Shown: positions 34,425 through 61,010 of the stretch, piece by piece | Layout of the letters: every line of letters begins with the position of its first letter | Position numbering within the stretch: the first letter of the stretch is position 1 | Source of the DNA: Rhodococcus wratislaviensis | GTDB taxonomy: Bacteria > Actinomycetota > Actinomycetes > Mycobacteriales > Mycobacteriaceae | NCBI RefSeq assembly: GCF_900455735.1 | Contig: NZ_UAUI01000022.1 | Span: 124,001-188,000, forward strand | Direction: 5' to 3' | DNA: 64,000 nucleotides | Notes under the pieces: model-generated | The model's input: the letters and a program-made list of their open reading frames with translations, nothing else | Database searches by the model: none | What the model was told of the DNA's origin: nothing | Made by a program: the position numbers and the translations under genes

Positions 34425-37400
34425 TCACGGCCGTTCGGAGAGCACGCGCGACAGCAGCGGCCCGATGACGGCGAGGGACTGCGGCTCGATCATCTCGTTG
34501 TGCCCGCAGTCCACGGGCCGCGCGTCGATCCGGCCGGTCACGAGCGGCCGCCACTCGTCCGTCGACCGGGCACGCGTCGCCCCGTCCCCGTCGCGTGTGG
34601 CGGGGAAGATGAGCAGGTCACCGTCGTATACCCGGGGCACGAAGTGGTGGGCGAGCCACCTCGAATTCTCGTATCCCGCGGCGATCCGTTCGAGGTCGTG
34701 CCCTCGCACTCCGGTCTCGGTCCCGAACGATTCGTCGATCAACCGCGCGGCATGTTCGTAGGTCATCTCGCCGTCGCCCTCGGTCTGGAGTCCCAGCCCG
34801 CGCAGGAGGTCCCGGATCTCCAGCCTGCCCGCCAGCGGGTCCTCGCCGCCGACGGGGTAGCTGTCCATGACGGCGAGGGTGGCGACCTCTTCGCCGGCTC
34901 TCTGCAGTTCGACGGCCATGGCGTGCGCGATGACTCCGCCGAGCGACCAGCCGAGCAGGTCGTACGGGCCGGTGGGCTGGATGGCCTGCATTTCCTCGAT
35001 GTAGCGGTGGGCCAGCTGCTCGATCGTCCGGTAATCGCCGTCACCGCTGATCGTGGGCAGCTGCAGTCCGTAGGCCGGTCGGTCGGGAGGGAGATACTGC
35101 ACCAGACCGGCGTACCCCCAGGACAGGCCGATCCCCGGATGCACGCAGAACAAGGGTCGCCCGCCTCCCTGCGCGCGCAGCGGAATCACCACGGCGAATG
35201 CCTCTTCCATTCCGGCGCTCCGGTGTGGCAGGTCGAGGCGACGGGCGATCCCCGCCGGTGTCGGGTCGAGGAACATCCATTGCAGCGGAACCCTCCGGTC
35301 CAGTTCTGCCTGCAGGGCGCTGACGATCCTGGTGGCGAGGAGGGAATTTCCGCCGAGATCGAAGAAGCTGTCCGCGGTGCCCACCCGGTCCACCCCGAGA
35401 ACCTCCGCGAAGGCGTCCACGACGATGCGCTCGTTTTCCGTGGCCGGTGCCCGGAACGCCGCAGCGGTCGACCCGAACTCCGGGGTGGGCAACGCCTTCC
35501 GGTCGAGTTTGCCCACCGGCGTCATCGGAATCCGATCGAGTACGACCACCGCGGACGGCACCATGTGGGCGGGCAGGCGCTCGGACGCGTAGGTGCGCAG
35601 CCCCGCCGGCTCCACCTCCTGCCCGTCCTGAGCCCGCACATACGAGGCGAGCACGGTGTCGCCGGACGGGCCGGTGTGACCGATGGTGGCGGCGAAGGCA
35701 ACCGCCGGGTGACCGGCGAGCACGGCGTCGATCTCCCCGAGTTCGATGCGGAAACCACGGACCTTCACCTGGAAGTCACTGCGCCCGACGTACTCGAGCG
35801 TGCCGTCGCGTGCGACATTCCCCGTCGCCGCGCTCGCCGACTTCTGCCAGCGCACCACGTCACCGGTCCGGTACATCCGGGTGCCCGGTTCCCCGAAGTT
35901 ACAGGCCACGAATCGTTCCGAGGTGAGCGCCGACCGGTTGTGGTACCCCCGTGCCGTACCCGGTCCGGCGATGTACAACTCGCCGGGCACACCGACCGGG
36001 ACCGGCTGCAGCCGCTCATCGAGGACCAGGAACGCGAATCCCCGTGCGGGTGACCCGATGTTTACACCCTCGCCGGGACGCATCGCGGCACTGACGCTCG
36101 CCTGGATCGTGGTCTCGGTGGGCCCGTACCCGCTGTGCAGGCTCCGCCCCGGCGCCCACCGCGCCACCACCTCCGGCGGGCACGCCTCGCCCACCAGGTC
36201 CAGGACCCGGAGCGAATCGAGTCCGTCGTTGTCGAGGGCGGAAAGCGCGGTCGGCGTGATGGTCGCATGGGTCACCTGCTCGCGACGGAACAGATCCGCC
36301 AGTTCGCTGCCCCCGACGACGGCAGGCGGCACGATCACCACCCGCGCCGACGCGCTGAACGCCATCATCAGCTCGAACACCGACGCGTCGAAACTCGGGG
36401 ACGCCAGTTGCGAGACCCGGGACTCGTGCGTGACCTGGAACCGTTCGTGCGTCTCCGCGGTGAAATCGGCCATGCCCCGGTGTGTGACGGTCACGCCCTT
36501 CGGCCTTCCCGTCGACCCCGACGTGTAGATGAGATAGGCCGGGTGGGCGAGGTGCAACGGACTCGTCCGATCCCCGTCGGTGATCGGTGCGGACGACACG
36601 TCCGCCGCCTGGGCGGCGAAGTCCTCGTCGTCGAGCATCAGCCAAGGAACGGTGTCGGGCAGGGTGCTCCGGCGACTTCGCACCGTGAGGCCGAGCGCGG
36701 CCCGGCAATCGGTGAGCATGTAGTCGAGACGATCGCGCGGGTACGTGGGGTCGACGGGCACGAACGCCGCGCCGGCCTTGGTGATCGACCAGATCGAGAC
36801 CACCGACTCGATCGACCGGGGCATTCCGACTGCCACGAACGTCTCCGGTCCCACCCCGCGGCGGCGCAGGACCCGGGCCACCCGGTTCGACCACTCGTCG
36901 AGTTCGCGGTAGCTGACTCGCCGGTCCTCGAACGACAGGGCCACCGAGTCCGGGTCGAGTGCGGCGGCCGCCGTCAGCAGATCGGGCCACAACTCGGGGC
37001 GCACCTCCGGCTCGCCGCGGGCAGGCACCATCGCCCGCAACTCCTCCTCGTCGAGGAGGAGCAGGTCGCCGATCGGCCGGTCCGGATTCTCGGTGACGGC
37101 GTCGAGGATACGCACGAAGCGGTCGGCGAAGCCGCGGACCGTGTCGGGGTCGAAGAGATCGGTGGCGAAGTCGACGGCGCCGTTCATCCCGGCCGGAGCA
37201 CCGTTCGCGTCGAACTCCTCCGCCAGGAGGAATTCGAGATCCACCTTGACCACGGCGAGCCCGGGATCGATTCCACGGACTTCCAGTCCCGGCAGTGTCA
37301 GGACCGGTCGCTCGTTGTTCTGGAACTCCAGTGAGACCTGGACGAGCGGCGCATACGCCGTGGATCGGGTCGGGCCGACCGCCTCCACCACCCGCTCGAA

Positions 37401-61010: not shown

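Follow-up and report, generated by a model that had tools for sequence, protein, structure and literature searches.

A GRINS pair of A domains in a heptamodular peptide synthetase of Rhodococcus

The synthetase genes and their predicted product

In this study, we analysed a 64,000-nucleotide stretch of Rhodococcus wratislaviensis DNA (the window), which is part of contig C14 in a genome of 7.78 Mb (here W). Its central feature is a nonribosomal peptide synthetase (NRPS) gene, NRPS1, which forms one open frame with no internal stops (Table 1). Pfam places Condensation (C), AMP-binding (A), PP-binding and Thioesterase (TE) domains along the protein, and a motif scan found seven A domains, seven carrier domains and a TE motif, together with HHxxxDG motifs for seven C and two epimerase (E) domains, the latter after carriers 3 and 5. 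This matches the humimycin-type layout of seven modules with E domains after modules 3 and 5 and a TE. A C domain precedes A1, and its starter subtype is presumed from its position. Module 1 opens with this complete C domain, after which comes the C-terminal half of another one, which covers positions 193-451 of 456 in the Pfam Condensation profile. The half-C stretch can be aligned across each of the 16 related synthetases compared, among them orthologs, NRPS2 and two further ones; it diverges faster than C1, its identity to R. opacus, for example, being 0.82 vs 0.95.

Table 1. Features of the NRPS1 locus, in window coordinates
Feature	Position	Strand	Basis or remark
Heptamodular NRPS (NRPS1), 8861 aa, GTG start	34425..61010	(-)	ORF, Pfam, motif scan
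C1, presumed starter C (N-acylating), aa 18-442	59685..60959	(-)	Pfam; starter role inferred from position and humimycin literature
Extra C-terminal half C domain between C1 and A1	58944..59642	(-)	Pfam, window protein only
GRINS copy 1 = A2 (Ser)	54237..55856	(-)	GC skew 0.38, TA skew 0.36, coding strand
A2 specificity-pocket segment (approximate)	54798..55070	(-)	73% to A4, weak skew 0.15
T2-C3-A3-T3-E3-C4	48099..54236	(-)	Domains absent, in frame, from G018 and G010 orthologs
E3 epimerase motif, module 3	50334-50363	(-)	Motif scan
GRINS copy 2 = A4 (Ser)	46482..48098	(-)	GC skew 0.36, TA skew 0.35
A4 specificity-pocket segment (approximate)	47043..47312	(-)	Skew 0.26
E5 epimerase motif, module 5	42549..42578	(-)	Motif scan
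Thioesterase domain (release)	34476..35159	(-)	Pfam
NRPS2 3' end	61175..64000	(-)	Second heptamodular NRPS, continues past window

Ten-residue specificity codes were read at the positions of the Stachelhaus scheme, which is also the source of the code meanings, with K assumed as the tenth residue. A2 and A4 share the code DVWHFSLVDK, which we take to stand for Ser, and A5 carries DFWNIGMVHK, presumably a Thr code; A1 (DASFVGAVMK), A3 (DALFVGAVVK), A6 (DGFFVGAIMK) and A7 (DAFTDVGIQK) were left without assignment. Judged from its sequence, NRPS1 is probably a humimycin-architecture synthetase, its predicted product being a seven-residue lipopeptide. By analogy with a synthetase on contig C25 of the same genome and with humimycin, residue 3 of this product may be D-Tyr-like and residue 6 Val/Ile-like. 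A preliminary description of this DNA had proposed a single gene of about 26.6 kb with seven modules, two epimerases and a terminal thioesterase, two Ser codes and one Thr code beside four unassignable pockets, and a peptide of the pattern X-Ser-D-X-Ser-D-(allo)Thr-X-X. The open frame, the Pfam domains and the motif scan bear out the gene structure, and the codes, taken with the E domains after modules 3 and 5, agree with the rest.

The same description placed the whole assembly line in one gene, which is right for NRPS1 as a single-gene heptamodular synthetase but understates the locus, where two heptamodular synthetases stand in tandem. NRPS2 (8919 aa; contig C14 185175-211934) ends 165 bp upstream of NRPS1 on the same strand and has the same architecture, with Thr codes at modules 2 and 5. 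Among the genes nearby, Pfam searches pointed to no clear tailoring enzyme next to NRPS1 and revealed methyltransferase and MFS transporter genes upstream of NRPS2. Genes for an acyl-CoA dehydrogenase and a 3-hydroxyacyl-CoA dehydrogenase lie divergent from NRPS2 (stretch L010 6862-9008) and might be the suppliers of a 3-hydroxy acyl chain. MbtH gave one match per genome in the three genomes searched; since the sole match in the window's genome (C14 640150-640302) is far from NRPS1, it would have to serve in trans.

Orthologs of NRPS1 were recognised in at least 20 of 24 genomes of the same genus, the named relatives being R. opacus, R. koreensis, R. jostii, R. erythropolis and others. In DNA, 16 orthologs are 76-92% identical across the final 2 kb and four (G010, G015, G016, G017) 73-74%; a paralog on C25 of the window's genome is equally close (75%) as these four, which we accept as orthologs because the codes agree. 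Where read, the codes of the orthologs are nearly invariant, with single-letter exceptions in A1, A4 (G020), A6 and A7; the reading is partial for G004, G012 and G021, and modules are absent from G018, G010 and G017.

The skewed A2/A4 repeat

The term GRINS was reportedly introduced for polyketide synthases (PKSs) by Nivina and colleagues in 2021, and their abstract is said to mention an occurrence in other gene families too; going by that abstract, we know of no account of how GRINS arise, spread and persist. The relevant passages of PMC10394414, PMC9899208, PMC11907408 and PMC11915812 describe them as stretches of about 1-1.6 kb repeated within a single megasynthase gene, >80-90% alike, with coding-strand GC and TA skew >0.25 and signs of gene conversion. 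Passages of PMC10394414 and PMC9899208 state the definition for PKSs, with a threshold for both skews of >0.25 in the former and >0.15 in the latter, and the review PMC11915812, in the part that concerns us, associates skews and conversion, in general terms, with PKSs as well as NRPSs.

A composition scan detected two strong GC and AT skew patches inside NRPS1, which coincide with A2 and A4. Among 1015 overlapping 500-bp windows spanning 102 kb, both skews exceeded 0.25 in magnitude with the same sign in 26, and all 26 overlap A2 or A4. When these 102 kb were compared with themselves, A2/A4 was the only pair of at least 80% identity over 400 bp (1590 columns, 92.4%); NRPS2 contains no such pair and no skewed 300-bp window at the threshold used. 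The skewed repeat is likewise absent from the five other A domains of NRPS1, and in every pair checked the skew is on the coding strand. The two copies lie in one gene, are at least 500 bp long and >80% alike, exceed both skew thresholds, 0.15 and 0.25, with GC/TA magnitudes of 0.37/0.34 and 0.38/0.35 over the aligned repeat, and bear the marks of gene conversion in within-genome homogenisation, tree and pocket comparison (see below); their host gene is an NRPS and not an assembly-line PKS gene. A2 and A4 of NRPS1 are a GRINS pair.

The limits of the repeat are those of the A domain. Aligned in 90-bp steps, modules 2 and 4 share 36-59% identity ahead of the A domain and 51-72% beyond it. Within the domain, 94-100% is reached in 13 of 18 steps, the others being the first step (71%), a single step of 79% and three steps at the specificity pocket (67-84%), where the skew of W drops as well. 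Among Leu codons, TTG makes up 0.55 in the GRINS vs 0.09 in the rest of the gene in the window, and 0.95 vs 0.20 in G015, and the recoding extends to synonymous first positions. Between W and G005, the two GRINS domains are 90.4% and 87.6% alike vs 91.4-94.1% for eight other segments; the faster divergence is not uniform, since against more distant genomes it is about equal to that of other segments.

Skewed A-domain pairs were also found in four other NRPS stretches of the genus, which were picked for like-scoring A-domain matches and show occurrence, not frequency. On C15 of the window's genome, one pair is 99.94% identical with a skew of 0.61 (L086 5013-6581 and 9614-11183). C25 of the same genome has three pairs at 82-93% with skews of 0.01-0.33 (L040/L071/L088/L089), within an open frame (9887 aa, nine A-domain motifs) that adjoins the synthetase with the humimycin-like code order. 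Another NRPS of G015 contains an array of skewed A domains (89-99.9%, skews 0.36-0.52; L090), and one of G011 a pair at 100% with a skew of 0.47, across two open frames (L091/L092).

Homogenisation, skew and apparent module loss among species

Pair counts were made on the 17 genomes with both A2 and A4 copies. G041 (a 915-bp piece) and G004 (a single match on another contig, of doubtful orthology) were left out of pair counts, tree and pocket comparison, and G018, G010, G017 and G021 (one copy each) out of pair counts and pocket comparison; within-pair identities were tabulated for 14 genomes, the A4 of G012 being a partial copy. Within genomes, A2 and A4 are 0.69-0.98 identical, and this identity rises with the skew (Spearman 0.72, n=17, kinship ignored); in the 13 genomes with a mean GC skew >0.3 its median is 0.945 and its minimum 0.781 (G020). 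Across clades, A2 is no closer to A2 (median 0.773, n=69) than to A4 by any wide step (median 0.767, maximum 0.849, n=138). In a DNA tree, the A2/A4 label needs 15 changes, against one under orthologous descent; because many rows break the base-composition assumption of its model, the tree is no more than supporting evidence. Seven genomes (G003, G043, G013, G019, G023, G005, G006) have starred own A2/A4 pairs in it, the own copies of W, G001, G024, G015 and G016 are not resolved as sisters, and the weakly skewed sister genomes G008 and G011 sort by position. For W, the within-genome identity of 0.915 is barely above the 0.904 to the A2 of G005. From homogenisation and tree shape we infer that A2 and A4 exchange sequence by within-gene conversion in most sampled species.

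A comparison in which the A domain was split into N arm, pocket and C arm showed that the pocket has been spared in six of the 17 genomes (W, G001, G006, G024, G023, G019): their arms are 94-100% alike with skews of 0.31-0.54, and their pockets, at 71-73% identity, have skews between -0.02 and 0.26. In G013, G003, G015, G016 and G043 the pocket is both homogenised (0.97-1.00) and skewed (0.43-0.62), and in G007, G008, G011 and G012 identities are 0.67-0.84 and skews 0.07-0.38. The pocket of G005 has an identity of 1.00 at a skew of 0.06; its A4 pocket is nearer to the A2 pocket of W (0.881) than to the A4 pocket of W (0.719), so that A2 was probably copied into A4 without skew. G020 has skews of 0.42-0.53 at identities of 0.74-0.86. 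A converted, unskewed pocket in the one and skewed, weakly homogenised domains in the other indicate that homogenisation and skew are separable in both directions.

The direction of change was assessed by polarising changes in the arms (to G/T : to A/C) against the expectation from the rates elsewhere in the gene (A5, A6, A7 and a portion of C5). These counts involve few sites, parsimony and an ad hoc Fisher test of observed vs expected; A2 and A4, non-independent copies that convert each other, were combined wherever both entered the count. Five genomes do not differ from ordinary DNA, namely W (16:38 vs expected 13.7:36.6), G005 (16:43 vs 12.5:35.8), G024 (14:34 vs 10.4:31.6), G020 (8:25 vs 8.0:26.5) and, for its one copy, G018 (9:12 vs 4.4:12.0); change at such ordinary rates lets the skew fade. 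The arms of G006 (34:3 vs 14.4:38.5, Fisher 3e-10) and G013 (37:9 vs 8.1:39.0, 6e-10) gain skew, and G019 (35:32 vs 23.1:61.6, 0.002) and G001 (17:14 vs 12.0:28.6, 0.03) lean that way. With A2 alone, the counts are 17:1 in G006 and 7:14 in W. G015 (12:11 vs 23.4:97.3, 0.002) and G016 (2:6 vs 22.6:94.1, 0.66) hardly change, and the arms of G023 and G003 gave 25:68 vs 20.8:41.9 (0.47) and 27:44 vs 33.3:116.8 (0.015). Loss of skew is seen in G008 (8:71 vs 22.5:37.2, 2e-4), G011 (14:64 vs 20.0:49.1, 0.12) and G007 (1:53 vs 17.4:43.5, 7e-5), for which the outgroups, uneven throughout, are skewed ones that favour apparent loss.

The C15 locus behaves differently from NRPS1. Six of the eight genomes searched hold both C15 copies in readable form; of the other two, G005 gave assembly fragments only and G023 no close match. 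In the six species all pairs are 0.993-1.0 alike with a GC skew of 0.61-0.66, and the polarised counts are 5:7 vs expected 7.8:35.5 in the window's lineage, 4:10 vs 4.7:36.2 in G018, 9:1 vs 8.4:23.5 in G006, 2:5 vs 5.8:26.2 in G024 and 1:2 vs 6.1:24.4 in G001. Since G<->T changes are still common there, with 17 in W, the deficit of A/C-ward change does not simply reflect a lack of change. In G015 and G016 at NRPS1 and in most lineages at C15, changes in both directions stay below the expected counts, and constraint or conversion may be part of the cause of this held state. Skewing looks switched off at NRPS1 in the window's lineage, on in some related species and held at C15 of the same genome; the difference between two loci of one genome argues against a purely genome-wide factor.

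Two orthologs appear to have lost modules in frame. Those of G018 (presumably R. jostii RHA1; chromosome of 7,804,765 bp) and G010 encode five modules in open frames of 6278 and 6341 aa, and T2-C3-A3-T3-E3-C4 is absent from both. Elsewhere in the two genomes no module 3 turned up among the 40 scored candidates, the top ones reaching 74% (at the tandem NRPS2) and 68%, respectively. Judged by the positions that distinguish A2 from A4 in W, the one copy of G018 is A2-like in its 5' part, with a mixed patch, and A4-like from the pocket on, and the copy of G010 is A2-like almost throughout; this difference in makeup points to two events with different joints. The deletions are seen in assemblies, and repeat collapse could be an alternative. 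The ortholog of G017 is 5'-truncated, module 1 and nearly all of A2 being missing in the fetched stretch (L074/L075), and the break falls close to the 3' end of the skewed A2 copy. Frame breaks or contig ends also occur in or near skewed A domains in L025/L026 (G013), L023 (G019), L029 (G021) and L083 (G012), as if these repeats troubled sequencing and assembly.

Interpretation and comparison with known systems

We consider it likely (probability about 0.8) that NRPS1 is a lipoheptapeptide synthetase with an A2/A4 GRINS that is shaped by conversion, by separate skewing and by the occasional loss of a unit. According to this model, C1 would N-acylate residue 1, the seven modules would add X-Ser-D-X-Ser-D-Thr-X-X and the TE would release the peptide. 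A2 and A4 would exchange sequence by gene conversion inside NRPS1 in most sampled species, and a separate process, dependent on lineage and locus, would deplete the homogenised tracts of C and A on their coding strand. Within the window's clade and its neighbours, conversion would act in the two arms flanking the pocket and leave the pocket alone, and in other species it would have run across the pocket. Unequal recombination between A2 and A4 would occasionally remove the unit between them and yield a shorter in-frame synthetase, as the two genomes with five modules suggest. The window's lineage would have switched skewing off at NRPS1, with the skew eroding at ordinary rates. A more general proposal, which we offer tentatively and at somewhat less than even odds, is that GRINS result from two separable processes, conversion and a locus-specific, switchable mutation that removes C and A, and that the skewed arms serve as recombination arms by which pockets are kept apart, swapped or overwritten and module pairs are excised in frame.

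The alternative that we take most seriously, while still regarding it as unlikely, is that biased gene conversion itself creates the skew, each event favouring G and T on the coding strand. It would explain why skewed and homogenised tracts share their ends, even within one domain; however, the pocket of G005 is fully converted yet unskewed, and the fully homogenised arms of the same genome change near control rates. Selection on codons or mRNA structure at the A domain, acting through translation pausing, would account for skew on the coding strand at every pair checked, but we consider it improbable as neither the five other A domains nor the tandem NRPS2 shows the skew, which also has a hole at the pocket within one and the same domain. 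Amino-acid content shifts too, Val making up 25.7% of the G015 copies vs 13.6% of the same domains in G007.

High identity and odd composition confined to two A domains could also be read as a recent module duplication, with the skew brought in by a foreign donor A domain. This is very improbable. Ser-type domains stand at both positions in G007, G008, G011 and G012 and are merely 69-80% alike, which dates the duplication before the split of these species; furthermore, the domain flanks are only 36-72% alike, seven genomes have starred own pairs in the tree, and the pocket has kept the old divergence in six of the 17 genomes. Least of all do we credit the idea that this is an ordinary humimycin-family NRPS in which repeats and skew are incidental codon drift: architecture and codes are by themselves ordinary, but the TTG/CTG reversal and the sharp tract limits speak against drift, as do the pairs that the window's genome has at two more NRPS loci, including the nearly identical one on C15.

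NRPS1 offers a comparative series inside a single genus, in which growing, fading and nearly lost GRINS stand at one orthologous position, with C15 in the same genome as a control locus and with apparent natural module deletions that the repeats bound. With such a series, origin and order of events become testable, and it suggests where nature cuts NRPSs, which is useful for engineering. On the practical side, GRINS repeats may break or collapse assemblies and thereby distort predicted peptides.

As a synthetase, NRPS1 is, by its codes and domains, a further humimycin-architecture NRPS with a different residue 4. Humimycin A is given as N-acyl Tyr-Ser-D-Tyr-Phe-D-Thr-Val-Val in a passage of PMC12024397. 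With the humimycin synthetases (IupU of R. equi and the humimycin B NRPS of R. erythropolis), as presented in passages of PMC5550956 and PMC12024397, NRPS1 shares seven residues, D residues at 3 and 5, Ser2 and Thr5, and the acylation of residue 1 stated there is predicted for the NRPS1 product as well. Residue 4 is Phe in humimycin A and has a Ser code in NRPS1, a comparison with the described peptide and not with the R. equi sequence; because the A4 code is not aromatic, the NRPS1 product is not expected to be humimycin. The C25 synthetase of the window's genome fits the humimycin order better, with near-equal codes 1 and 3, Ser2, a non-Ser residue 4 and Thr5.

A closer counterpart may be NRPS-5, which according to passages of PMC5550956 (Ceniceros et al., 2017) is present in all R. 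erythropolis strains, has the humimycin architecture with other predicted substrates for modules 1, 3, 4, 6 and 7, and belongs to a cluster that contains an mce operon. NRPS1 resembles it in architecture, in the departing substrates and in having an ortholog in R. erythropolis. In G010, which is R. erythropolis NBRC 15567, and in G016, the ortholog is 19 kb away from an mce operon; given this distance and those passages, the R. erythropolis ortholog of NRPS1 is probably NRPS-5. The window's genome differs in having no mce gene near NRPS1 (the nearest on the contig is at 671 kb) and in having the tandem NRPS2. Among the literature matches listed, no product of this ortholog or of NRPS-5 was found. 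The earlier statement that no rhodococcal peptide of this pattern has been described therefore needs qualification: humimycin A, as described in part in these sources, shares length, D positions, Ser2 and Thr5, and NRPS-5 is published, but residue 4 differs and the matches listed include no NRPS-5 product.

With regard to the repeat, no study of GRINS in an NRPS was found among the open-access literature matches listed, as judged by titles and the beginnings of abstracts, and in PMC12184294, which cites the paper that named GRINS and treats NRPS recombination, a search for terms gave no GRINS, skew or gene conversion in the text covered. The present case stands out as a GRINS made of A domains in which conversion can be separated from skewing, the pocket is spared, activity depends on the locus and the apparent loss of modules is bounded by the repeats. 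In comparison with the GRINS of PKSs, the host is an NRPS, the unit is one A domain and the pocket is often spared; unlike in the description of PKS GRINS, the NRPS1 pair is eroding in some lineages and growing in others, and it bounds an apparent in-frame loss of modules.
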